Both the position numbers and the translations under genes were made by a program. Positions 3,922-33,734 of a stretch of 64,000 nucleotides of DNA are shown here, piece by piece. This DNA is from Acidimicrobiaceae bacterium. GTDB lineage: Bacteria > Actinomycetota > Acidimicrobiia > Acidimicrobiales > RAAP-2. The DNA lies in assembly GCA_003153575.1 (NCBI GenBank), contig PLZW01000035.1:142175-206174 (forward strand). The letters run 5' to 3'. Below the pieces are notes generated by a model that searched no databases, had not been told where the DNA came from, and saw nothing but the letters and a program-made list of their open reading frames with translations. Within the stretch, counting starts at the first letter, position 1, and every line of letters starts with the position of its first letter.

Positions 3922-4749
3922 TCAGGGACCAGTCACCGCTTCGACGGCGGTGAGGAAGGCCGGCCGCTCGCCACCCCCGTGGGCCACCACGTTCGCCCCG
4001 CTCACGTAGGCGGCCAGGGGGGAGGCCAGGAAGAGGCAGATTCCGGCCACGTCGCCCGGCGTGCCGAACCGCCCCAGCGGGACCGTGGCCGCGGCCGCGG
4101 CGATGCCCTCGGGCCCCCCGTAGTGGTCGTCGCCGGCCTCGGTGGTCACCAGGCCGGCGCTGACCGCGTTGACCCGGACCTTCGGAGCCCACTCGACGGC
4201 CAGCGACTGGGTGAGATTGAGGAGCCCCGCCTTGGCCGCCCCGTAGGCGGCCGTGCCCGGCGAGGGGCGCAGGCCACTGACCGAAGCCATGTTCACGATG
4301 ACGCCGCCGTCGTCCTGGCCCTGCATGACCGCATTGGCCGCCTGTGCACAGTAGAGAGGCGCGAGCAGGTTGAGGTTCACGATGGATGCCATCAACCGGG
4401 GCGACGCGGTGGCGGCGTCGGCGTAAGGCGAACCGCCGGCGTTGTTGACCAGTACGTCCAGTCGCCCGTACCGCCCGACGGTGGCCTCCACCAGTGCCGA
4501 CGCCTGGTCCGGGTCCCGGACGTCGGCGGCGAAGAACCCGGCCCGGCGCACGGTGGCGGGGCCGTCCGACACTTCGGGCAGTGCCCCGTCGGCAATCTCC
4601 GTGCGCCCGCACACCATCACGTCCGCCCCGGCGGCCAGAAACGCCTCGGCGACGGCGCGCCCGATGCCGCGCCCGCCGCCGGTCACGATGGCCACCCGGC
4701 CGCCGAAGTCCAGGGGGTCGAGGCCGTCGGTGCTCCGCTGCGCTCCCAC
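3922..4749 (-). CDS. SDR family oxidoreductase (Rv3549c-like position in HIP cluster)
   Basis: VGAQRSTDGLDPLDFGGRVAIVTGGGRGIGRAVAEAF...; GTG start at 4749 preceded on the - strand by GGGAGG; the longer ATG option at 4806 falls inside the palindrome. Confidence 0.8.
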   Translation of the reverse strand: MGAQRSTDGLDPLDFGGRVAIVTGGGRGIGRAVAEAFLAAGADVMVCGRTEIADGALPEVSDGPATVRRAGFFAADVRDPDQASALVEATVGRYGRLDVLVNNAGGSPYADAATASPRLMASIVNLNLLAPLYCAQAANAVMQGQDDGGVIVNMASVSGLRPSPGTAAYGAAKAGLLNLTQSLAVEWAPKVRVNAVSAGLVTTEAGDDHYGGPEGIAAAAATVPLGRFGTPGDVAGICLFLASPLAAYVSGANVVAHGGGERPAFLTAVEAVTGP

Positions 4750-4794
4750 TGCTGCCTCCCTGGTTCCGGCTGGTACTGTCCACACCACTATTAC

Positions 4795-4809
4795 CTGACA
4801 CCGCATCAG
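4795..4809. promoter_or_regulatory. CTGA-N7-TCAG palindromic candidate operator (SDR/EchA20 divergent region)
   Basis: CTGACACCGCATCAG; a TAATAG -10-like hexamer lies next to it on the - strand (4788-4793). Confidence 0.5.
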
Positions 4810-4963
4810 ATCGGAAACCGCACCCGGCCGGACGCCGGGCGGACCCAGCGGCGGCGTCGGAGGATAGGGAACACCAGTGCACGCCGAGTGCGTGGCCGCG
4901 TCACCGCCGGGCCCCGGGCCCTGTCGGGCCGACCGGACACGCCGCAGATCCCCGGAGCAGAAC

Positions 4964-5722
4964 ATGCCCATCGTCACCCACCAGGAACGCCCCGGCATCG
5001 CCGAAGTGGTCATCGACCACCCGCCGGTCAACGCCCTCGACGTGGCCGGCTGGTACGCCCTAGCCGATGCCGTGCTGGCCGCCGGACGCGTGGCCGCCAA
5101 CCGGGCCGTGATCTTGCGGGCCGAGGGCAGGGGCTTCTGCGCCGGCGTCGACATCAAGGAGATCCAGGCGAAGGGTGACGACGCCCTGATCGGTGCGAAC
5201 AGGGGGTGCTTCGCCGCCTTCGCCGCCGTCTACGAGTGCGAGGTGCCCGTCATCGCCGCTGTGCAGGGATTCTGCCTCGGCGGGGGCGTGGGACTGGCGG
5301 GCAACGCCGACATCATCGTCGCCTCTGAAGATGCCACGTTCGGCCTACCCGAGGTCGACCGCGGCGCCCTCGGTGCGGCCACCCACCTGTCCCGGCTCGT
5401 CCCCCAGCACCGCATGCGGTCGATGGTCTACACGGCGAAACCGGCGACGGCGGCCGAGCTCCACCACTACGGGTCGGTGCTGCGCGTCGTTCCCGCCGAC
5501 CAGCTGGTAGCCGCGGCCTACGAGGTGGCCGAAGAGATCGCCGCCAAGAGCCCGACGATCATCCGGCGGGCCAAGGAATCGCTCAACGGGATCGACCCTG
5601 TCGACGTGCGCCGGAGCTACCGGTTCGAACAGGGGTTCACCTACGAGCTCCACGTCGCCGGCGTCGCCGACGAGCAACGGGCCGCCTTCGTCGACAAGCG
5701 CGACGCCGACACCACCAAGTGA
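4964..5722 (+). CDS. echA20: Enoyl-CoA hydratase/isomerase, EchA20-like
   Basis: MPIVTHQERPGIAEVVIDHPPVNALDVAGWYALADAV...FCAGVDIKEIQ...GGGVGLAGNADIIVA; immediately upstream of the IpdA/B pair. Confidence 0.75.
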   Translation: MPIVTHQERPGIAEVVIDHPPVNALDVAGWYALADAVLAAGRVAANRAVILRAEGRGFCAGVDIKEIQAKGDDALIGANRGCFAAFAAVYECEVPVIAAVQGFCLGGGVGLAGNADIIVASEDATFGLPEVDRGALGAATHLSRLVPQHRMRSMVYTAKPATAAELHHYGSVLRVVPADQLVAAAYEVAEEIAAKSPTIIRRAKESLNGIDPVDVRRSYRFEQGFTYELHVAGVADEQRAAFVDKRDADTTK

Positions 5723-5785
5723 CCGCTCCGGGGGCGGCGCCATCCGCTCGTCGGCATCGGGCCCACATACAGACAGGACCGCACC

Positions 5786-6676
5786 ATGGCTGACAAACGA
5801 CTGACCCTCGAGGACCTGGTGGCCGAGCTCGACTCGGGTATGACCATCGGCTTCGGCGGCTGGGGCTCGCGGCGCAAGCCGATGGCCGCCGTCCGGGCCA
5901 TCCTCCGATCCGACCTCACCGATCTGACTGTCGTCTCCTATGGAGGCCCCGACGTCGGGCTGCTGTGCGCCGCAGGCAAGGTGGCCAAGGTCGTCTACGG
6001 ATTCGTGACCCTCGACTCCATCCCCACCGACCCCCACTTCAAGGCGGCCCGCCAGTCCGGCGCCATCGGGGCCATGGAGATCGACGAGGGCATGTTCTAC
6101 CTGGGCCTGCTCGCCGCCTCGCAACGCGTCCCGTTCCTGCCCACACGGGCCGGCCTGGGCTCCGACGTGCTGGCCGTCAACCCGTCGCTGCGCACGGTGC
6201 GCTCCCCCTACGACGACGGCGAGGAGCTGGTAGCGATGCCGGCGCTCCGGCTCGACGCCGCCGTCGTCCACGTCAACCGGTCCGACGCCGCCGGTTCCGG
6301 CCAGATCCTCGGGCCCGACCCGTTCTTCGACGAATTGTTCCTGGGCGCCGCCGACCGGCGGTTCGTCACCACCGAGCAGGTGGTGGCCACCGACGAGCTG
6401 GCGCCGGGCGGCCCGCTCCAGTCGATGTGCATCAGCCGCCTGCTGACCGACGGTGTGGTCGAGACGCCGGGAGGGGCCCACTTCACCGCATGCGTCCCCG
6501 ACTACGGACGCGATGAGGGATTCCAGAGGGAGTACGTGGCGGCCGCCGGCGACCCGGACGCGTGGGCGGCGTTCCGCGGGCGGTTCCTCGACGTCGACGA
6601 GGCCGGCTACCAGGCGGCCACCCGCCGGGCGGCCGACGAGCGCTCCGCCGCCAAGGCCGCCAAGGAGGGCGCATGA
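5786..6676 (+). CDS. ipdA: CoA-transferase alpha subunit, IpdA-like
   Basis: MADKRLTLEDLVAELDSGMTIGFGGWGSRRKPMAAVRAILRSDLTDLTVVSYGGPDVGLLCAAGKV; overlaps the next gene (ATGA). Confidence 0.8.
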   Translation: MADKRLTLEDLVAELDSGMTIGFGGWGSRRKPMAAVRAILRSDLTDLTVVSYGGPDVGLLCAAGKVAKVVYGFVTLDSIPTDPHFKAARQSGAIGAMEIDEGMFYLGLLAASQRVPFLPTRAGLGSDVLAVNPSLRTVRSPYDDGEELVAMPALRLDAAVVHVNRSDAAGSGQILGPDPFFDELFLGAADRRFVTTEQVVATDELAPGGPLQSMCISRLLTDGVVETPGGAHFTACVPDYGRDEGFQREYVAAAGDPDAWAAFRGRFLDVDEAGYQAATRRAADERSAAKAAKEGA

Positions 6677-7449
6677 CCGACACGACCGACACCGGAGTCA
6701 CCCGGGCCGAGTACTGCGCGGTCGCCTGCGCCGAGGTGTTCCGCGGCGACGGCGAGGTGATGGCGAGTGCCTTCGGGACCGCACCCGCCCTCGGGGCCCG
6801 TCTGGCCCGGCTCACATTCGCCCCGGATCTCGTTCTGACCGACGGTGACGCCGCCCTGGTCGACGGCGCGCCCCCGCTGGGCGCGGCACCGTCGTCGCTC
6901 GTCCTCGAGTCCCACATGCCGTACCGCCGCGTCTTCGATGTGGTGTGGTCGGGCCGGCGCAACCTGATCATGATGGCCTCCCAGATCGACCGCACGGGCA
7001 ACCAGAACATCAGTGCCATCGGGCCGTGGGCCCGACCGAAGGCCCAGCTGATCGGGGTGCGCGGTGCACCCGGGAACACGGTCAACCATTCGACCAGCTA
7101 CTGGGTCCCCAACCATTCGACGCGCGCGTTCGTCGAGCAGGTCGACGTGGTGTCGGGCGTCGGGTACGCGCGGGCCGCGGCCGCCGGCCCGTCAGCCTCC
7201 CGCTTCCACGAGATCCGGTACGTGGTCTCCAACCTCGGGGTGTTCGACTTCGCCACACCCGACCGGTCGATGCGCCTGGCGTCCGTGCACCCGGGCGTGA
7301 GCATCGCCGAGGTGGTCGAGTCCACCGGTTTCGCCCTGAACGTGCCCGACGACGTGCCCGACACCCGCGATCCCACCCCGGAGGAGCTCGACCTGCTCCG
7401 CACGGTGCTCGACCCGTCGGGCCTGCGCGACCGCGAGGTGCGCGGGTGA
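6673..7449 (+). CDS. ipdB: CoA-transferase beta subunit, IpdB-like
   Basis: MTDTTDTGVTRAEYCAVACAEVFRGDGEVMASAFGTAPALGARLARLTFAPDLVLTDGDAALVDGAPP; directly follows IpdA-like. Confidence 0.8.
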   Translation: MTDTTDTGVTRAEYCAVACAEVFRGDGEVMASAFGTAPALGARLARLTFAPDLVLTDGDAALVDGAPPLGAAPSSLVLESHMPYRRVFDVVWSGRRNLIMMASQIDRTGNQNISAIGPWARPKAQLIGVRGAPGNTVNHSTSYWVPNHSTRAFVEQVDVVSGVGYARAAAAGPSASRFHEIRYVVSNLGVFDFATPDRSMRLASVHPGVSIAEVVESTGFALNVPDDVPDTRDPTPEELDLLRTVLDPSGLRDREVRG

Positions 7450-8510
7450 CCCATCCCGCTCTCCACACCGCCTTCTGCGACCTGGTCGGCGTGCGCTACC
7501 CCATCGTCCAGACCGGCATGGGATGGGTGGCCGGGCCGCGCCTGGTGGCCGCCACGGCCGAGGCCGGCGGGCTCGGGATCCTGGCCTCGGCCACCATGAC
7601 CTTCGACGAGTTGGTGGCCGCCATCGCCGAGGTGCGGTCGCGCACCGACGAGCCGTTCGGCGTCAACATGCGCACCGATGTCGCCGACGTCGGCGACCGT
7701 GTCACCCTGATGATCGACAACGGCGTGCAGGTGGCGAGCTTCGCGCAGGCACCCAGCCAGGCGCTCGTCGACCGGTGCCGCGCCGCCGGGCTGGTGGTCA
7801 TGCCGACCATCGGCGCCCGTCGCCACGCCGAGAAGGTCGCCGGGTGGGGTGTCGACGCGGTCATCGCCCAGGGTGGCGAGGGGGGCGGCCACACCGGGAC
7901 CGTGCCGACCTCGCTGCTCACCCCTGCGGTGGTCGACGCCGTCGGCGACAAGGTCCTCGTCGTGGCCGCCGGTGGGTTCTTCGACGGGCGCGGGCTCGTG
8001 GCCGCCCTGGCCTACGGCGCGTCCGCCATCGCCATGGGCACGCGTTTCCTGCTGACCAAAGAGAGCCGGGTGCCCGATGAGGTGAAGCAGCTCTACCTGC
8101 AGACGCCGGTGACCGGCACCGTGGTGTCCACCGCGGTCGACGGGGCCCCGCAACGCGTCATCCGCACCGACCTGGTGGACCACCTGGAGAAGTCGGGCTG
8201 GCTGCGGGCACTCCCCCGCGCCCTGGCCAACGCCCATGCGTTCCGCAAGGAGACGGACACCTCGCTGCTGGCGCTCTGGAAGGAGGGCACGGCGATGAAG
8301 CAGGGCAACGATCTCTCGTGGCCACAGGTCGTGATGGCCGCCAACGCACCGATGATGACGAAGGCGGCACTCGTCGACGGTCGCGTCGACGTCGGCGTGC
8401 TCCCGACGGGCCAGGTCGTCGGCGAGATCGACGAACTGCCGACCGTCGAGCAGTTGATCCACCGGATCATGGACGAGGCCGGCCACGTCCTCGATCGGCT
8501 CGGCGCCTAG
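7446..8510 (+). CDS. ipdC: Nitronate monooxygenase-fold / IpdC-like (NAD(P)H-dependent flavin oxidoreductase)
   Basis: VTHPALHTAFCDLVGVRYPIVQTGMGWVAGPRLVAATAEAGGLGILASATM...; GTGA overlap with ipdB. Confidence 0.75.
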   Translation: MTHPALHTAFCDLVGVRYPIVQTGMGWVAGPRLVAATAEAGGLGILASATMTFDELVAAIAEVRSRTDEPFGVNMRTDVADVGDRVTLMIDNGVQVASFAQAPSQALVDRCRAAGLVVMPTIGARRHAEKVAGWGVDAVIAQGGEGGGHTGTVPTSLLTPAVVDAVGDKVLVVAAGGFFDGRGLVAALAYGASAIAMGTRFLLTKESRVPDEVKQLYLQTPVTGTVVSTAVDGAPQRVIRTDLVDHLEKSGWLRALPRALANAHAFRKETDTSLLALWKEGTAMKQGNDLSWPQVVMAANAPMMTKAALVDGRVDVGVLPTGQVVGEIDELPTVEQLIHRIMDEAGHVLDRLGA

Positions 8511-13231: not shown

Positions 13232-14437
13232 TCAGCCCAGGCGCTCGATGATGGTGGCGTTGGCCTGGCCGCCGCCTTCGCACATCGTCTGGAGTCCGTA
13301 GCGGGCGCCGGTGCGCTCCATCTCGTTGAGCAGGGTGGCCATGAGGCGCGCGCCCGACCCACCGGTCGGGTGGCCGATGGCGATGGCCCCGCCGTTGACG
13401 TTCACCCGGTCCATGTCCGGGTGGTACTCCTTCTCCCAGGCCAGCACCACCGAGGCGAACGCCTCGTTGATCTCGACGAGGTCGATGTCGTCCAGGGACA
13501 GCTTCGCCTTCTCGAGCACCAACGCCGTCGCCGGGATCGGAGCGGTGAGCATGATGACCGGGTCGTTGGCCGCCACCGCGAAGGTGTGGAACCGGGCCCG
13601 AGGGGTGAGGCCCAGCTGGGCGGCCCGCTCCTCGGACATGATCAGCACAGCCGCCGCACCGTCCGAGATCTGCGACGACGAGGCCGCCGTGACCAGTCCG
13701 CCCTCCACGAAGCACGGTGGCAGCGAAGCCAGCTTGTCGTAGGTGGAGCCGGCCCGCACGCCCTCGTCGAAGGCGAGGTCGCCCTCGTCGGCCGGATCGC
13801 CCTCGTCGGTGCCGGCCACCGCCACCTTGTCCTCGATCCGGGCGCGACGGGTGGCCAGCGGGACGATCTCGCGCTCGAAGCGGCCCTCGGCGATGGCGCG
13901 GGCGGCCCGTTCGTGGGACCGGAGAGCGAATCGGTCCATCTCCTCGCGGGTGATGCCCCAGCGACGGGCGATCTCCTCGGCGCACAGGCCCTGGTGGATG
14001 AAGTCGAACCGGTCGTGCACGGTCGGCCCGTACGCCTCACCCGGGCCGTGGTCGGTCGTCGACCCGATCGGCACCCGGCTCATGGCCTCGACCCCGCCGC
14101 CGATCACGATGTCCATGGCCCCCGACGCCACCGCCTGGGCGGCGAAGTGGACGGCCTGCTGGGCCGATCCGCACTGCCGGTCGACGGTGGTGCCCGGCAC
14201 CGTGTCGGGAAAGCCGGCGGCGAGCGCGGCGTTGCGTCCGATGTTCATGGCCTGCTCGCCCACCGTCATGGTGCAGCCGAAGACCACGTCCTCCACCAGC
14301 GCCGGATCGAGGTCGTTGCGGGCGATCAGCGCGGCGAGCGGCTGGGCGGCGAGATCGACCGCATGCCAGCCGGACAGTCGTCCGTTCTTCTTCCCTACCG
14401 GAGTGCGGACGACGTCGACGATCACAGCGCTGGCCAT
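13232..14437 (-). CDS. fadA6: Acetyl-CoA acetyltransferase, FadA6-like thiolase
   Basis: MASAVIVDVVRTPVGKKNGRLSGWHAVDLAAQPLAALIARNDLDPALVEDVVFGC...GGAIAIGHPTGGSGARLM...CEGGGQANATIIERLG. Confidence 0.82.
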   Translation of the reverse strand: MASAVIVDVVRTPVGKKNGRLSGWHAVDLAAQPLAALIARNDLDPALVEDVVFGCTMTVGEQAMNIGRNAALAAGFPDTVPGTTVDRQCGSAQQAVHFAAQAVASGAMDIVIGGGVEAMSRVPIGSTTDHGPGEAYGPTVHDRFDFIHQGLCAEEIARRWGITREEMDRFALRSHERAARAIAEGRFEREIVPLATRRARIEDKVAVAGTDEGDPADEGDLAFDEGVRAGSTYDKLASLPPCFVEGGLVTAASSSQISDGAAAVLIMSEERAAQLGLTPRARFHTFAVAANDPVIMLTAPIPATALVLEKAKLSLDDIDLVEINEAFASVVLAWEKEYHPDMDRVNVNGGAIAIGHPTGGSGARLMATLLNEMERTGARYGLQTMCEGGGQANATIIERLG

Positions 14438-14470
14438 ACAGCCATTGTGCCCGATGGGCCACGGTTGCCG

Positions 14471-14495
14471 GAAATCTGAAGGTGTGTCAGATTTC
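14471..14495. promoter_or_regulatory. Perfect 9-bp inverted repeat with 7-bp spacer (CTGA-N7-TCAG family)
   Basis: GAAATCTGA-AGGTGTG-TCAGATTTC between the divergent thiolase and ACAD genes. Confidence 0.75.
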
Positions 14496-14548
14496 GGAGC
14501 GACCGCGACGTGCGTGGATCGCACCCGTCCGAGCGAGGGACGCACCTG

Positions 14549-15727
14549 ATGGACCGACCGATGGACCTGCACTACTCCGACGCCCAGGAGGCGTTCCGGG
14601 CCGAGGCCAGGGCGTGGCTGGCCGGCCACGCACCCGCACCCCGGTCGCTGCCCTCGCTCGACACCGCCGACGGCTTTGAGGCCCACCGGGCCTGGGAGGC
14701 CGAGATGTACGCCGACCGCTGGTCGGTGGTGTCATGGCCCGAGGCGTTCGGAGGCCGGGGCGTCGGCATCATCGAGTGGTTGGTCTTCGAAGAGGAGTAC
14801 TGGCGGGCCCAGGCCCCGCTGCGGGTCAGCCAGAACGGGGTCTTCCTCCTGGCCCCGACCATGTTCGAGTTCGGCACCGACGCCCAGAAGGCGCGCTTCC
14901 TGCCCCCGATGGCATCGGCCGCGGAGATCTGGTGCCAGGGCTGGTCCGAGCCCGATGCCGGCAGCGACCTGGCCGGCATCCGCAGCCGGGCCCGGCGCTC
15001 CGACGCCGAGGGCGGGTGGGTCCTCTCCGGGCAGAAGACGTGGGCGTCGCGGGGAGCTTTCGCCGAGTGGTGCTTCGGGCTGTTCCGCACCGACCCGGAG
15101 GCCGAACGCCACCGGGGGCTGACCTACTTCCTGATCGACATGGCCACCCCGGGGGTGACCGTGCGCCCCATCCCCCAGATCGACGGCGAGACCGGCTTCG
15201 CCGAACTGTTCTTCGAGGACGTCTTCGTGGCCGACGACCTGGTCCTCGGCCAGGTCGGCCACGGGTGGAACGTGGCCATGGCCACGGCCGGCTCCGAGCG
15301 CGGACTCAGCCTGCGCAGCCCGGCCCGCTACAGCCGGGCCGCCGACCGGCTGGTCGACCTCTACGCCGATCGCCTGGCCGTCGACCCCGCCCGGGCGGCA
15401 CGCAGCGCCGACGCCGTGGCCCGGGCCTGGATGGACGCCGAGGCCTACCGATTGAACACGTTGTGGACCGCCACGCGGGTGCTCGACGGCGGGTCGGTGG
15501 GCCCCGAGGCCAGCGCCAACAAGATCCATTGGTCGGAGACGGACCTGGCCATCCACCGGGCCGCCCTCGACCTGCTCGGCCCCGAGGCCGAGCTCCACGG
15601 GGACGGGGTCGACGCCCCGTGGCTCGACGGGTACCTGTTCGCCCTGGCCGGACCCATCTATGCCGGCACCAACGAGATCCAGCGGAACGTGGTGGCCGAG
15701 CGCATGCTCGGGCTGCCGCGGGGCTGA
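14549..15727 (+). CDS. Acyl-CoA dehydrogenase, large partner (FadE-type)
   Basis: MDRPMDLHYSDAQEAFRAEARAWLAGHAP...WCQGWSEPDAGSDLAG...GWNVAMATAGSERGLS...IYAGTNEIQRNVVAERMLGLPRG. Confidence 0.9.
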   Translation: MDRPMDLHYSDAQEAFRAEARAWLAGHAPAPRSLPSLDTADGFEAHRAWEAEMYADRWSVVSWPEAFGGRGVGIIEWLVFEEEYWRAQAPLRVSQNGVFLLAPTMFEFGTDAQKARFLPPMASAAEIWCQGWSEPDAGSDLAGIRSRARRSDAEGGWVLSGQKTWASRGAFAEWCFGLFRTDPEAERHRGLTYFLIDMATPGVTVRPIPQIDGETGFAELFFEDVFVADDLVLGQVGHGWNVAMATAGSERGLSLRSPARYSRAADRLVDLYADRLAVDPARAARSADAVARAWMDAEAYRLNTLWTATRVLDGGSVGPEASANKIHWSETDLAIHRAALDLLGPEAELHGDGVDAPWLDGYLFALAGPIYAGTNEIQRNVVAERMLGLPRG

Positions 15728-16886: not shown

Positions 16887-18299
16887 CTAGGGCTGGGCAA
16901 ACCCGTAGATCGGCACGCCGTTGTAGGACGACGAGTGCGACGGGAGGTAGGGCCCGTTGATGATGACGGCCAGGCTGCCCGTCGCGGCCGGGCCGGCATC
17001 GCCTTCCACGGTGACGATGGCCCCGTCCGGCCACACCTGCACGACGAGGCCGACGTGCACCGACGAGGCGGTCGACCACGGCCCGGTGCCGTAGAGGACG
17101 GCGTCGCCGGGCGACGGTGAGGCCGACGGGGCCAGCACCCCGGTGTCGGACTGGGCCCAGCTGTAGATGCTCCCGGTGAAGGCGTACGACGGTATGGGCA
17201 CGCCGGCCCGCTCCCACACCCACGTGGCGAACAGCGCGCACCACGCCTCGCACGGCCCGTACGGGTTGCAGAAGTACCCGGCGGACGGGTCGGCGTTCAC
17301 CTGGCTGGCGGCCGTGGCCACGATGGCCGAGGCCAGCGGTGAGGGCGTCGGGTCGGGCGGGTTGGCCAACGAGTAGTTGAACCCGTCGGGGTCGAGCATC
17401 CAGTACCCCGAGCCCCCCTGGGTCAGGGCCATGGCGGCAATCGGCGGGACGTTGCGGGGGTTGCCGCCGAAACCGCCGCCGAGCGCGCCCCGGAAGACGG
17501 CGTCGCCGAACGTGAACAGACCACCGTCGGTGGCGACCATGTAGTAGCCGCCGTCGTCGGGCATGGCGGCCATGCCGACCACCGGGTCGTTGAGGACAGT
17601 GCCTCCGATCGAGCCGCGGAAGGGTGCGTCGCCGAACGTGAAGATGCCCCCGTCACCCGCCACCAGCCAGTAGCCCAGGCCGCCGCGGGTCGGGGCCATG
17701 CCCGTCACGGCGGACACCAGTTGCGTGCCCCCCATCGAGCCCAGGAACGGGGCGTCGCCGAAGGCGAACACACCCCCGTCCGAGGCCACCAGCCAGTAGC
17801 CCTTCCCGTCGGGCGTGGAGGCCATCCCCACGATCGGTTGGTTGAGGGGCACCGCGCCCATCGACCCGTAGAAGCCGGCGTCGCCGAAGGCGAACACCCC
17901 GCCGTCCAGGGCGGCCAGCCAGTAGCCCCGGCCGTCCGGTGTGGCCGCCATGGCCACCACCGGTCCCTCCAGTCGCAAGGCGCCGAGCGAGCCGTAGAAC
18001 CCGGCGTTCCCCTGGGCGTAGACTCCGCCGTCGGCCGACGCCAGCCAGTAGCCCTCGTCGGTCGCCGGGGCCACCGGGTTGGCGGCCATGCCCACCACCA
18101 CCGAGTCGAGCGGCAGGGTCAACGGGGGGGCCACCTGCGGGGCTCCGAAGCCAAGCACCCCGCCGCCGGCGTAGAGGTGCGGTCCGGCCAGCGCCTCACT
18201 GACCGAGACGGCCCCGGCCGGAGCCGGAGCCACCGCGAGGCCGGCGGCCAGCGCCAGTGCGGCGGCGCAGCCGGCCAGCACTCGTCGCGGTCCGAACAT
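16887..18299 (-). CDS. Secreted repeat protein with C-terminal CHAP-like (Cys/His) amidase domain
   Basis: Signal peptide MFGPRRVLAGCAAALALAAGLAVAPAPAGA; repeats DGGVFAFGDAGFYGSMGAVPLNQPIVGMASTPDGKGYWLVAS; C-term YFCNPYGPCEAWCALFATWVWERAGVP...GDAVLYGTG...HVGLVVQV. Confidence 0.8.
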   Translation of the reverse strand: MFGPRRVLAGCAAALALAAGLAVAPAPAGAVSVSEALAGPHLYAGGGVLGFGAPQVAPPLTLPLDSVVVGMAANPVAPATDEGYWLASADGGVYAQGNAGFYGSLGALRLEGPVVAMAATPDGRGYWLAALDGGVFAFGDAGFYGSMGAVPLNQPIVGMASTPDGKGYWLVASDGGVFAFGDAPFLGSMGGTQLVSAVTGMAPTRGGLGYWLVAGDGGIFTFGDAPFRGSIGGTVLNDPVVGMAAMPDDGGYYMVATDGGLFTFGDAVFRGALGGGFGGNPRNVPPIAAMALTQGGSGYWMLDPDGFNYSLANPPDPTPSPLASAIVATAASQVNADPSAGYFCNPYGPCEAWCALFATWVWERAGVPIPSYAFTGSIYSWAQSDTGVLAPSASPSPGDAVLYGTGPWSTASSVHVGLVVQVWPDGAIVTVEGDAGPAATGSLAVIINGPYLPSHSSSYNGVPIYGFAQP

Positions 18300-18428
18300 G
18301 GCCCCCCATGGTAGGCAGCGCCCTGGGCCGGCGAAAGGGGTCATTTCGCGAATTCACGGGACGGAGGCCGCGCCACGGACCGGCGGCATCGCGCCGACAA
18401 CGGGGCCCCAGCCGATCCCGGGACGCAA

Positions 18429-18443
18429 CTGACACACCGTCAG
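18429..18443. promoter_or_regulatory. CTGA-N7-TCAG palindromic candidate operator upstream of amidohydrolase
   Basis: CTGACACACCGTCAG; CTGACA-N18-TACACT promoter-like arrangement with the ATG 8 nt after the -10. Confidence 0.55.
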
Positions 18444-18465
18444 AACCGGGGATACACTCCCCTCC

Positions 18466-19662
18466 ATGGCCGAACTGCCCAAGATCATCTCCGTCGACGA
18501 CCACATCGTCGAGCCCGCCGACGTCTGGACCAGCAGGATGCCGGCCAAGTTCAAGGACGCCGCCCCCCACATCGTCCGCAAGGAGATGCCGGACGTCACG
18601 TTCGTCGGCGGGAAGCTGACCGTCAACGAGGGTGGCGGCACGGCCCCGGCCGACTGGTGGATCTACGAGCAGCTGCAGCGGCCCCTGCTGCGGGTCGACT
18701 CGGCCGTGGGCGTGCCCCGCGACGAGGTCACCATGAAAGGCATCACCTACGACGACATGCGCCCCGGCTCCTACAGCCAAAAGGAGCGCCTGGAGGACAT
18801 GGACGAGAACCACATCGAGGCCTCGCTGTGCTTCCCGACCTTCCCCCGGTTCTGCGGCCAGACCTTCTCCGAGGCCGAGGACAAGGAGCTCGCCCTGCTG
18901 TGCGTCCAGGCGTACAACGACTACCAGGTCGAGGAGTGGTGTGCCGGCACCGGGGGGCGCCTGGTCCCGCTCACCATCGTGCCGCTGTGGGACGCCCACC
19001 TGGCCGCCGCCGAGGTCCGGCGCAACGCCGGGCGCGGCGTGCGGGCCGTGTGCTTCAGCGAGATCCCGGCCTACCTGGGTCTGCCCTCCATCCACGACCC
19101 CGACAACTACTGGGACCCCTTCTTCGCGGCGTGCGACGAGACGTCGATGGTCGTCAACATGCACATCGGCTCGAGCTCCAAGATGCCCTCGACGTCGGCC
19201 GACGCCCCTGCCGCCGTGGGCTCGTCGCTGACCCACATCAACGCCGAGCTGTCCATGACCGACTTCTTGATGTCCGGACTCTTCGAGCGGTTCGCCAACC
19301 TGAAGGTCGCCTACTCCGAAGGCCAGATCGGCTGGATCCCCCACCTGCTCCACCGCATGGACGTGGTGTGGGAGGACAACCGGGGCTGGGGCGGCGTGGC
19401 CGACAAGGTCCCGAACCCGCCGTCCAGCTACTTCGCCGACCACGTCTTCGGTTGCTTCTTCGACGACCCCAACGGACTGCTCCTGATCGACGAGATCGGC
19501 GAGGACAACATCACCTACGAGTCGGACTACCCGCACTCCGACTCCACGTGGCCCCGCACGCGCGAGATCGCCGAGAAGCAGATGTCCGGACTGACCGACG
19601 AGCAGCGCTACAAGGTCGTCCGGGGCAACGCCATCAAGCTCTTCGGCCTCGACTTCAAGTGA
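18466..19662 (+). CDS. Amidohydrolase family protein (metal-dependent hydrolase, amidohydrolase_2 type)
   Basis: MAELPKIISVDDHIVEPADVWTSRMPAKFKDAAP...MDENHIEASLCFPTFPRFCGQTF...YESDYPHSDSTWPRTREIAEKQMSGLTDEQRYKVVRGNAIKLFGL. Confidence 0.85.
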   Translation: MAELPKIISVDDHIVEPADVWTSRMPAKFKDAAPHIVRKEMPDVTFVGGKLTVNEGGGTAPADWWIYEQLQRPLLRVDSAVGVPRDEVTMKGITYDDMRPGSYSQKERLEDMDENHIEASLCFPTFPRFCGQTFSEAEDKELALLCVQAYNDYQVEEWCAGTGGRLVPLTIVPLWDAHLAAAEVRRNAGRGVRAVCFSEIPAYLGLPSIHDPDNYWDPFFAACDETSMVVNMHIGSSSKMPSTSADAPAAVGSSLTHINAELSMTDFLMSGLFERFANLKVAYSEGQIGWIPHLLHRMDVVWEDNRGWGGVADKVPNPPSSYFADHVFGCFFDDPNGLLLIDEIGEDNITYESDYPHSDSTWPRTREIAEKQMSGLTDEQRYKVVRGNAIKLFGLDFK

Positions 19663-23716: not shown

Positions 23717-24451
23717 TCAGGACAGCGACGCGTGGAACCCGTTCAACACGGTGGCCGCCTGTTCCGGGTCCTGCAGCGCCCACCAGTGGCCGACACCGGT
23801 CAGGGTCGCCGCTCTGGCTCCCAGCATGATCGCCACCTCGCCCGACAGCCGCTCCTCGCCGAACGGGTCGTCGGCCGCGTGCAGCACCAGTCCCGGTGCG
23901 CTCGTCGGGGTCATGGCGTCGCCCCAGTCGCGGAAGAGGCGGGGACCGGCCGACCGGTAGAGGTCCATGATGCACGAGGCCATCACCGGGTCGCCCAGCG
24001 GGACCAGTGCCCCGGTATCGGCGGCCGGCACGCCCATCGCCTCGTAGCCGGCGGCCAGGTCGGATGCCGGCACGCCGGCCTGGGAGCCGAAGAACTCCTC
24101 GCCCGCCCCAGGGGTCTGCAACAGCTGGGCGAAGTCGTGCCAGGAGTACTCGGGGTGCATCACGTTGGCCACGTCGGCCGCCCAGGACCGCAGTAGGTCG
24201 CCCCGGATGGTGGCCACCCGGTAGGTGAGGGCGGCCCCCCAGTCGTGGCCCACCAGGTCGACGGGACCGCCGATCCCCTCGAGTGCTGCGACCAGCCAGT
24301 GGACGTACTCCTCCTTGGTGGCGCCGAAGCCGTCGGGCCGGGGGTTGGCGAAGCCCGGTAGCGACAGGGCCACCGAGTCGCCGTCCAGCCGTTTCCGCAG
24401 GTGGTCCCACAGGGCGGCGGTTTCAGGCACGCCGTGGACGAGGACGATCAT
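23717..24451 (-). CDS. Alpha/beta hydrolase
   Basis: MIVLVHGVPETAALWDHLRKRLDG...DLVGHDWGAALTYRVATIRGDLLRS...GVGHWWALQDPEQAATVL. Confidence 0.87.
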   Translation of the reverse strand: MIVLVHGVPETAALWDHLRKRLDGDSVALSLPGFANPRPDGFGATKEEYVHWLVAALEGIGGPVDLVGHDWGAALTYRVATIRGDLLRSWAADVANVMHPEYSWHDFAQLLQTPGAGEEFFGSQAGVPASDLAAGYEAMGVPAADTGALVPLGDPVMASCIMDLYRSAGPRLFRDWGDAMTPTSAPGLVLHAADDPFGEERLSGEVAIMLGARAATLTGVGHWWALQDPEQAATVLNGFHASLS

Positions 24452-25870: not shown

Positions 25871-25972
25871 ATGGTTCTGGAAATCAGAAGGGTGGATGCC
25901 CGAACCTTACCGTCGGCATCGGGGACGACCCGGGTGGCACCCGGTTCGCCGGGCGCCGGTGCGTGTCATAAT

Positions 25973-25987
25973 CTGACGCACTGTCAG
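25973..25987. promoter_or_regulatory. CTGA-N7-TCAG palindromic candidate operator upstream of amidohydrolase/D-aminoacylase-like gene
   Basis: CTGACGCACTGTCAG directly after CATAAT (25967-25972). Confidence 0.55.
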
Positions 25988-26097
25988 TTCCACGGGGACG
26001 CGGTGACGGACCTCACCGTCCGCCATGGCCGCCCCGGTCGTACCGATGCTCATCGGGCCGCGGGAGCACGCCCCGGGCCCCACGAAGGGAAGCGCAC

Positions 26098-27831
26098 ATG
26101 CTCGACTACGCGATCCGCAACGGCCTGGTCGTCGACGGCACCGGAGCACCGGGCTTCCGCGCCGACGTCGGGATCAGGGACGGCATGATCGTGGCCGTCG
26201 GGACGGTCACCGAGGTGGCCGCCACCGAGCTCGATGCCGAAGGCCTCGTGGTGGCGCCCGGAATCATCGACCCCCACACCCATTACGACGCCCAGCTCTT
26301 CTGGGACCCGACTGCCTCCCCGTCCAACCTCCACGGCGTCACCACGGTGATCGCCGGCAACTGTGGCTTCACCCTGGCCCCGATCAAGTCGGCGGATCAC
26401 GACTACATCCGCAGGATGATGGCCAAGGTCGAGGGCATGCCGCTGGTCGCCCTCGAGAGCGGCATCGAGTGGGACTGGACCACGTTCGCCGAGTACCTGG
26501 CCCGGCTCGAGGGCAACCTCGGCGTCAACGCCGGCTTCCTGGTGGGCCACTGCGCCATCCGTCGTTGGGTGATGGGACCCGAGCGGGGCCCCGAAGTGGC
26601 CGACGACGCCGAACTGGCCGCCATGACCTCCCTCCTGGCCGAGTCGATCGAGGCCGGCGGTCTCGGCTTCTCGTCGTCGCAGTCGCGGACGCACTCCGAC
26701 GGCGACGGCAACCCGATCTCGTCCCGCTACGCCGACCGGCGCGAGATGCTGGCCTTCTGCGAGGTGGTGCGGGACCACCCCGGCACCACGCTCGAGTACA
26801 TCACCAACGGCTGCCTCGACACCTTCAGCGATGACGAGATCGATCTGATGGTGGCCATGACCACCACGGCGCAGCGCCCGCTCAACTGGAACCTCCTGAC
26901 CGTCGACTCCCGCACCCCGGACAAGACCACCCGCCAGCTCGAGGCCTCGTCGGCCGCCGCCGCCGCCGGGGGCAAGATCGTCGCGCTGACCATGCCGACA
27001 CTGGTCCCCATGAACATGAGCTTCCGCACCCACTGTGCCCTGTTCCTCATCCCCGGTTGGGGTGACGTCATGGGACTGTCCGAGGCGCAGCGGATCGAGA
27101 AGCTCCGCGACCCGGCGGTGCGGGCCGAACTGGACGAGCTGGCCCATTCCGAGGGTGCCGGGGTGTTCCGCCGACTCTCGCACTGGGCCAACTACATCAT
27201 CGGCGACACGTTCGCCCCCGAGAACGCCGGCTACAGCTGGCGCGACGTGGGCTCCATCGCCGAGGAGCAGGGCAAGGAGCCCTTCGACGCCCTCCTCGAC
27301 CTGGTCATCGCCGACGACCTGCGCACCGTCCTGTGGCCCAAGGCCTCGGACGGCGACGCCGCCTCCTGGGAGGCACGCGTCGACGTCTGGAAGGACCCGG
27401 GCGCACTGGTCGGCGGTTCGGACGCCGGCGCCCACCTCGACCGCATGTGCGGCTCCAACTACCCGACGTCGTTCCTCGGGGACTGCCTGCGCAAACGCAA
27501 GCTGGTCCCGATGGAGCAGGCCGTCCACTGGATGACCGAGGCGCCGGCCGACCTGTTCGGCCTCCACGACCGCGGCCGGGTGGCCGAGGGCCTGCGGGCT
27601 GACCTCTTCGTGTTCGACCCGGCCACCGTGGCCTCCGAGCCGGCCACCCTGGTCGAGGATCTGCCCGGCGGCAGCCCCCGGCTGATCGCCGACTCCATCG
27701 GCGTCGTCCGGGTCCTGGTCAACGGGGTCGAGACGGTGGTCGACGGCCAGCCCACCGGCAACCTGCCCGGCACCCTGTTGCGGTCCGGCATCGACACCGT
27801 GACCGTGGACACCTCGGCCGCGGCCGTCTGA
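26098..27831 (+). CDS. Amidohydrolase family protein (N-acyl-D-amino-acid deacylase-like)
   Basis: MLDYAIRNGLVVDGTGAPGFRADVGIRDGMIVAVG...VVAPGIIDPHTHYDAQLFWDPTASPSNLHGVTTVIAGNCGFTLAP...DLFVFDPATV. Confidence 0.88.
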   Translation: MLDYAIRNGLVVDGTGAPGFRADVGIRDGMIVAVGTVTEVAATELDAEGLVVAPGIIDPHTHYDAQLFWDPTASPSNLHGVTTVIAGNCGFTLAPIKSADHDYIRRMMAKVEGMPLVALESGIEWDWTTFAEYLARLEGNLGVNAGFLVGHCAIRRWVMGPERGPEVADDAELAAMTSLLAESIEAGGLGFSSSQSRTHSDGDGNPISSRYADRREMLAFCEVVRDHPGTTLEYITNGCLDTFSDDEIDLMVAMTTTAQRPLNWNLLTVDSRTPDKTTRQLEASSAAAAAGGKIVALTMPTLVPMNMSFRTHCALFLIPGWGDVMGLSEAQRIEKLRDPAVRAELDELAHSEGAGVFRRLSHWANYIIGDTFAPENAGYSWRDVGSIAEEQGKEPFDALLDLVIADDLRTVLWPKASDGDAASWEARVDVWKDPGALVGGSDAGAHLDRMCGSNYPTSFLGDCLRKRKLVPMEQAVHWMTEAPADLFGLHDRGRVAEGLRADLFVFDPATVASEPATLVEDLPGGSPRLIADSIGVVRVLVNGVETVVDGQPTGNLPGTLLRSGIDTVTVDTSAAAV

Positions 27832-32207: not shown

Positions 32208-32987
32208 TCAGGCGCGCCCGCGGCCCCGTCCCCTGGACGTCCGGGCGGCCGCCGCGCCGCCGCCCACCACCGGCCCGGTGCGGGGTGCCGGGCTCTCCGA
32301 CCCGGGCACCCGGGCCCCAGCGGGCGCGGGCCGGCCGGTCACCGACCAGTGGAGCAGGCGGGCCTGGCTGTCGACGAGCGAGGCGGTGCGGATCCCCCAG
32401 AACTCGAAGCCGTAGCGGTGGCCCGCCACCTGGGCCAGCATGGCGATCAAGGTCCCGGCGGCCGCCATCGGGTCGGCACCGGCGGGCGAACCCGAGCTCC
32501 CGGCCTGATTGGCGATGACCCGGGCGAGGGTGACCGTCACCGCGTTGAGCGCCCGGACCCGCAGCCCCTGGAACCGGAGGTCACCCTCCACGGTGGTCAG
32601 CTCGACGACCCGGAAGACGGCCCGGTTGCGTTCCCAGTAGTCCATGAAGCCCTCGACCACGGCGACGGCCGTGTCCCACGATGCCTCCTCCGACCAATTG
32701 CCGGAAACGACTTCGGCGAGCACGCCGGCACCGTCGACCAGCTCCTCGGCCAGGACGGTGATGGCCGCTTCGACGTTCTCGAAGTACTGGTAGAAGGTGG
32801 CCGGCGAGGTGCCGGCCTGGCGGGCGATATCGATGACCTTGATCGAGCGCCACGGGGTGGCCACGAGCAGCTCGGCCGTGCACTCCAGCAGGCGCTGGCG
32901 GGTGGCCAGGCCCCGACGACCGGGTACGCGGCCGTCGGTGGTGGCGATGAGTTCCGTGTCGTCTTCGGTGGACTCGGCGGTGGGCAT
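32208..32987 (-). CDS. TetR family transcriptional regulator
   Basis: RQRLLECTAELLVATPWRSIKVIDIARQAGTSPATFYQYFENVEAAITVLAEELV. Confidence 0.9.
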   Translation of the reverse strand: MPTAESTEDDTELIATTDGRVPGRRGLATRQRLLECTAELLVATPWRSIKVIDIARQAGTSPATFYQYFENVEAAITVLAEELVDGAGVLAEVVSGNWSEEASWDTAVAVVEGFMDYWERNRAVFRVVELTTVEGDLRFQGLRVRALNAVTVTLARVIANQAGSSGSPAGADPMAAAGTLIAMLAQVAGHRYGFEFWGIRTASLVDSQARLLHWSVTGRPAPAGARVPGSESPAPRTGPVVGGGAAAARTSRGRGRGRA

Positions 32988-33131: not shown

Positions 33132-33734
33132 ATGGCGAACGGTCCGGTGCCGCGCACCTTGACGCGGGCTCAGCAGGCCCGCCGTCAGCGCGTGGTCGAC
33201 GCCGCCATGACCCTGGCGTTGGACGGGGGCTACGAGTCGGTCCAGATGCGCGACGTCGCCGCCCGGGCCGACGTGGCCATGGGCACCGTCTACCGCTACT
33301 TCACCAGCAAGGATCACCTGCTGGCGGCCGCCCTGGTGCACTGGGTTGAACAGCTGGACAGCCGCCTGGCCCAGAACCCGGCCCAGGGTGCGAGCCCGGC
33401 CGAGCGGGTCATCGACGCCCTCGACCGGGCCCTGCGGTCGATGGGGCGCCAGCCGCAGCTGGTCGGCGCCGTGTTCACCGCGCTGGCCTCGCCCGACCCC
33501 GCGGCCATCGAGTGCCAACAACAGGTGTCGGTGCTGATGGAGGGGATCATCACCCGGGCCATCGGCGAGCCCCAACCGCCGGACATCAGCGACCGGGCCC
33601 GGATCTTGGGCCACGTCTGGTACTCGGCCCTGGTCGGCTGGGTGAACGGCTGGAGCAACATGAACCGCGTGCACGACGAGCTCGTGGTGGCCATCGGCCT
33701 CCTGCTGCCCGTCGAGGTCTACGCCGAGGTCTGA
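33132..33734 (+). CDS. TetR family regulator, KstR-like
   Basis: RRQRVVDAAMTLALDGGYESVQMRDVAARADVAMGTVYRYFTSKDHLLAAALVHW closely matches the remembered HTH of mycobacterial KstR. Confidence 0.85.
   Translation: MANGPVPRTLTRAQQARRQRVVDAAMTLALDGGYESVQMRDVAARADVAMGTVYRYFTSKDHLLAAALVHWVEQLDSRLAQNPAQGASPAERVIDALDRALRSMGRQPQLVGAVFTALASPDPAAIECQQQVSVLMEGIITRAIGEPQPPDISDRARILGHVWYSALVGWVNGWSNMNRVHDELVVAIGLLLPVEVYAEV

Follow-up and report, generated by a model that had tools for sequence, protein, structure and literature searches.

The 64-kb window (the whole stretch of DNA that was analysed) comes from a MAG that is 76% complete; gene starts were taken from a simple composition-based caller, and genome-wide counts from pattern and model searches. 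The features around the inverted repeat under study are:

13232..14437, - strand: FadA6-like thiolase (Pfam Thiolase_N/C; NCBIfam thiolase models)
14438..14548, no strand: divergent thiolase/acyl-CoA dehydrogenase intergenic region, 111 bp
14444..14449, - strand: predicted thiolase -10 (CACAAT), from its conservation in close loci
14465..14493, + strand: TTGCCG-N17-CAGATT, predicted promoter of the dehydrogenase, which passes through the putative operator; a consensus match only
14471..14495, no strand: perfect 9-bp inverted repeat with a 7-bp loop, read directly from the sequence
14474..14492, - strand: putative operator core of 19 bp, ATCTGACACACCTTCAGAT in the thiolase direction (conserved in Acidimicrobiia; matrix score 33.1)
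14549..15727, + strand: acyl-CoA dehydrogenase (best solved relative Tcur3483, 6wy9)

The exact sequence of 14471-14495 is GAAATCTGA-AGGTGTG-TCAGATTTC, identical to the palindrome with perfect 9-bp arms described in the initial annotation. Its divergent gap of roughly 110 bp was measured as 111 bp (thiolase on the - strand, dehydrogenase on the +), and the AT-richness that it called unusual is borne out by a GC content of 40% for the 25-bp repeat vs 70% for the window, a value as low being reached by only 0.1% of 25-bp windows. The symmetry by itself is near chance and unremarkable, because perfect 9-bp repeats are frequent in shuffled windows. Those with arms of at least 9 bp and loops of 0-12 number 20 in the window vs 8.8 ± 3.0 after shuffling, and those with a loop of 7 number two vs 0.7. 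The ninth base pair is perfect in the window's own genome, and is broken by CACCGCCAG in most close relatives. What makes the element significant is its conservation and recurrence, not its symmetry. The repeat had also been placed in a CTGA-N7-TCAG family. This pattern is over-represented both in the window (4 observed vs 0.59 expected; 1/100 shuffles reaches 4) and genome-wide (21 places vs 8 for the reversed control); the seven central positions proved not to be free, as the spacer CACACCG is conserved and carries ~7 bits in the weight matrix.

Conservation was assessed in a sample of 80 fetched loci that contain thiolase relatives. Across Acidimicrobiia, a 19-bp element with the consensus ATCTGAC[A/G]CACCG[T/C]CAGAT is retained in this gap between the thiolase and acyl-CoA dehydrogenase genes; upstream of the thiolase, most Acidimicrobiia loci read AATCTGACACACCGCCAGAT and then, also conserved, CGGCAA, with a -10 resembling ACAAT behind it. 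An alignment of orthologous gaps had been proposed as the check on a regulatory palindrome in this divergent promoter, and the retention of the palindrome in most of ~50 Acidimicrobiia loci supports the regulatory reading. In the 15 close loci that share this spacing, one of them the window itself, identity is 95% over the 19-bp core vs 47% over the 50-bp outer upstream stretch. Part of this conservation is due to the promoter elements that overlap the element. The palindrome is not universal, because one arm is gone in 8 loci (thiolase upstream, L051, L056, L058-L060, L063, L065, L073), which have lost the right arm and kept TTGCCG-N17-CAGATT; these are probably natural operator-loss variants. 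A search for the motif letters in the literature, largely outside subscription journals, found nothing relevant, and nothing was found on such regulators in Acidimicrobiia.

The weight matrix, whose training set took in three of the four window sites and left out the one at 4793, gave these four sites scores of 33, 33, 27 and 25, vs 11.5 for the next match on other sequence and at most 14 in shuffled windows. The three further sites and their neighbouring genes are:

3922..4749, - strand: SDR (NF005893)
4793..4811, + strand: second putative operator copy, in the SDR/EchA20-like divergent gap (score 24.9; conserved in relatives)
4964..8510, + strand: consecutive EchA20-, IpdA-, IpdB- and IpdC-like genes (HIP operon)
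18427..18445, + strand: third putative operator copy, 20 bp upstream of an amidohydrolase (score 33.2; conserved in ~28 loci)
18453..18458, + strand: predicted -10 TACACT, 18 nt downstream of the in-operator CTGACA (TANNNT pattern)
18466..19662, + strand: amidohydrolase (Amidohydro_2 domain match)
25971..25989, + strand: fourth putative operator copy, upstream of a second amidohydrolase (score 27.4)
26098..27831, + strand: second amidohydrolase (Amidohydro_3 domain match)

The initial reading can be refined, in that the element belongs to a regulon of several promoters, for which a candidate regulator can be named. The SDR/EchA20 site also occurs in relatives L031, L032, L034, L232 and L235, and the site of the second amidohydrolase at the corresponding gene in L184, L195, L227 and L237. 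Where dehydrogenase and thiolase are unlinked, as in some genomes, a copy of the element is found at each gene. Beyond the window, the element stands before further acyl-CoA and steroid-type genes of the own genome: it lies upstream of an AMP-ligase gene and of a cytochrome P450 gene, and occurs as tandem copies 22 bp apart (L012:1499-1539; G000:C27:31351-31387) between divergent genes for an acyl-CoA dehydrogenase and for a protein with an OB-fold domain of ChsH2 type. In G020, a genome on a single contig, all 18 sites scoring >17 lie within ~100 bp before a gene start in the stretches read (18/18), and the genes downstream are mostly acyl-CoA, AMP-ligase or amidohydrolase genes.

The window's gene set is that of HIP catabolism (PMC5380842). 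Besides the FadA6-like thiolase and the IpdA/IpdB/IpdC/EchA20-like set (for IpdA, the best solved relative is 6co6, E 5e-102), it encodes several dehydrogenases; a CHAP-domain protein (16887-18344) also lies within the catabolic cluster, with homologs in the same place in L025 and L146. KshA_C was found in the own genome and 9/30 relatives, with one relative below the cut-off (10/31 genomes in total), while most of the 31 genomes have the regulon. Either the assemblies, some of which are incomplete, account for the small number of KshA_C matches, or the pathway serves other substrates.

TetR genes are not consistently present near the thiolase in relatives. Two divergent TetR genes elsewhere in the window, the nearer of them 18 kb from the inverted repeat, were considered as sources of the regulator:

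32208..32987, - strand: candidate regulator, TetR family, PF19352 (TetR_C_38), EthR-like (from co-occurrence, motif linkage and profile/fold)
33132..33734, + strand: KstR-like TetR, the candidate's divergent neighbour and its rival as regulator (NF033703 E 1.5e-46)

The protein encoded at 32208-32987 scores 119.9 bits against TetR_C_38 (cut-off 23.9) and 27 against TetR_N (cut-off 24), and its predicted structure has a mean pLDDT of 86. Its recognition helix, TSPATFYQYF, is invariant among orthologs down to 39% identity. Orthologs occur in 22/31 genomes, and 22/22 of these have motif matches (E <= 0.1), as against 3/9 of the genomes lacking an ortholog (Fisher p 1e-4, with relatedness ignored). 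In four other families, moreover, the ortholog's gene or the operon that includes it is preceded by the element. In G019 the sole motif match at E <= 0.1 lies 17 bp upstream of the ortholog; in G020 an isochorismatase gene, the first of an operon that includes the ortholog, has a site 14 bp upstream; and the ortholog's operon is also headed by a site in both G021 and G023. None of these four sites was in the matrix training set. Sites beside the ortholog are weak in G007 and G017 and weak or absent in the own genus; the own genome lacks a strong one next to the TetR gene, and G030 has none before the ortholog's gene or operon. Considering co-occurrence and linkage together, the 32208-32987 protein is probably the repressor that binds the element.

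Relatives of this TetR on Streptomyces plasmids were also considered and set aside, as their neighbourhoods are unrelated and the motif is absent. A reading of 30 TetR loci of the own genome found no strong site beside a TetR gene. The best of the 30 (L106:2983-3001) has ATCGGACACTCTGTCCGAT, a perfect palindrome of the same spacing with CGGAC arms, which precedes a gene adjoining another TetR and is possibly the operator of a paralogous regulator.

Promoter-like sequences overlap the element at several sites. Toward the dehydrogenase, TTGCCG-N17-CAGATT was matched in 37/52 loci vs 0.85 after shuffling. In the thiolase direction many distant loci have the consensus match CTGACA-N18-AACAAT; in the own genus the thiolase -35 is uncertain, because the -10 (CACAAT) lies further away. 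At the amidohydrolase sites, TANNNT follows CTGAC[A/G] by 17-18 nt in 25/28, with a start codon shortly downstream, and the operator therefore appears to occupy the -35 position of the amidohydrolase promoter. Because the element overlaps promoter-like elements in this way, repression by occlusion is the likeliest mode of regulation.

These matches raise the question of whether the conserved block is nothing but an overlapping pair of divergent promoters, its symmetry a by-product. The match toward the dehydrogenase, which survives in the 8 loci without the right arm, and the one toward the thiolase in distant loci fit this explanation. However, the right arm, which neither promoter requires, is kept in most loci, and this 19-bp element recurs at promoters of differing geometry (amidohydrolases, SDR/EchA20 and TetR operons), so we regard a promoter pair alone as improbable. 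That the repeat arose by chance, or is a transcription terminator, is more improbable still: shuffled windows of equal size do hold ~9 perfect 9-bp repeats, but from family to family the element is kept in this gap, and it is repeated at other promoters. The terminator reading was dropped, as a terminator would have no evident role between divergent gene starts.

A more serious competitor accepts the element as the operator of a regulon and assigns it to a different binder, either the KstR-like TetR at 33132-33734 or another, unlinked regulator. Two observations that count against our candidate speak for this: three genomes have the motif without a 32208-32987 ortholog, and the KstR-like gene, which adjoins the candidate, has a nearly identical distribution among genomes. 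It is because of this similar distribution that 33132-33734 stays a rival. In G019 and G020, however, the motif heads the orthologs of 32208-32987, and no match lies near the orthologs of the KstR-like gene; we consider a different binder unlikely. No KstR-type site was found upstream of 33132-33734.

We therefore favour as likely the explanation that a TetR-family repressor, most probably the one encoded at 32208-32987, uses the palindrome as its operator. As is characteristic of TetR-family operators, the element is short and palindromic, lies in promoter regions and is conserved from ortholog to ortholog. Comparison of genomes brings out the conservation of the element, the apparent regulon, the overlap with promoter-like elements and the linkage to the TetR gene; that a protein binds and represses here, and which ligand and substrate are involved, is our inference. 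A TetR dimer would sit on the two half-sites CTGAC/GTCAG. At 14471-14495 it would cover two parts of the dehydrogenase promoter, the spacer and the -10, and adjoin or overlap the thiolase promoter, so that a single dimer would shut both divergent genes. The same repressor would act on the echA20-ipdABC promoter and the two amidohydrolase promoters in the window, and in several relatives on its own promoter. The repressor would be released by an intermediate of the pathway, probably a CoA thioester, and the C/D-ring (HIP-type) catabolic set would then be turned on.

The element is thus probably a conserved switch site before genes for steroid-ring-like catabolism in uncultured soil actinobacteria, with its probable repressor encoded 18 kb away. 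On balance we lean towards a broader interpretation, in which several families of the order control the C/D-ring (HIP) pathway of steroid catabolism by a TetR repressor of PF19352 that has replaced KstR2 without being its ortholog and that recognises an operator not described before. The regulon of this repressor would be wider than KstR2's and would extend to genomes in which no KshA was found. If true, the presence of the regulon in those genomes would suggest a role beyond steroids, and the system would be a clear case of a pathway kept while repressor and operator were exchanged. For uncultured actinobacteria the analysis offers a regulator and operator of a catabolic pathway that can be put to the test together, and the motif can serve to find further pathway genes.

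Among known repressors, EthR of M. tuberculosis is the closest solved relative of the candidate by profile (E 1.3e-11) and has the closest fold to its predicted structure (TM 0.80 on target, 0.62 on query), though identity is only ~20%. The EthR motif is described as larger, more complex and present in several copies (PMC4482099), unlike the 19-bp element. KstR, the cholesterol catabolism repressor, resembles the protein encoded beside the candidate, but that protein scores 158 bits vs the NF033703 cut-off of 280. What we take to be the KstR operator pattern, TNNAACNNGTTNNA, has one match in the window, at 23733 and inside a predicted gene. Neither this pattern nor the KstR2 operator, AnCAAGnnCTTGnT in Mycobacterium and Rhodococcus (PMC3068626, PMC5380842), gave a meaningful match in the window, with 0 matches for the latter and none even for its core CAAGNNCTTG. 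Because the KstR2 operator is absent from the window and the candidate does not look KstR2-type (it matches EthR, and KstR2 is absent from its solved-structure matches), we classed the operator and its regulon as new ones of TetR type and not as a KstR2 regulon. The regulon here also differs from KstR2's in taking in amidohydrolases and others. In its targets and layout the system nevertheless parallels the KstR2 regulon. KstR2 too is a TetR repressor that uses a short palindrome in divergent gaps and controls ipdAB, ipdC, echA20 and fadA6, the HIP genes that the sites at 4793 and 14474 accompany here, and one of its sites falls in the SDR/echA20 gap (Rv3549c/Rv3550; PMC3068626), as the 4793 site does in the window. 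The pathway of the KstR2 (HIP) regulon thus appears in these bacteria under a different repressor and a different operator.
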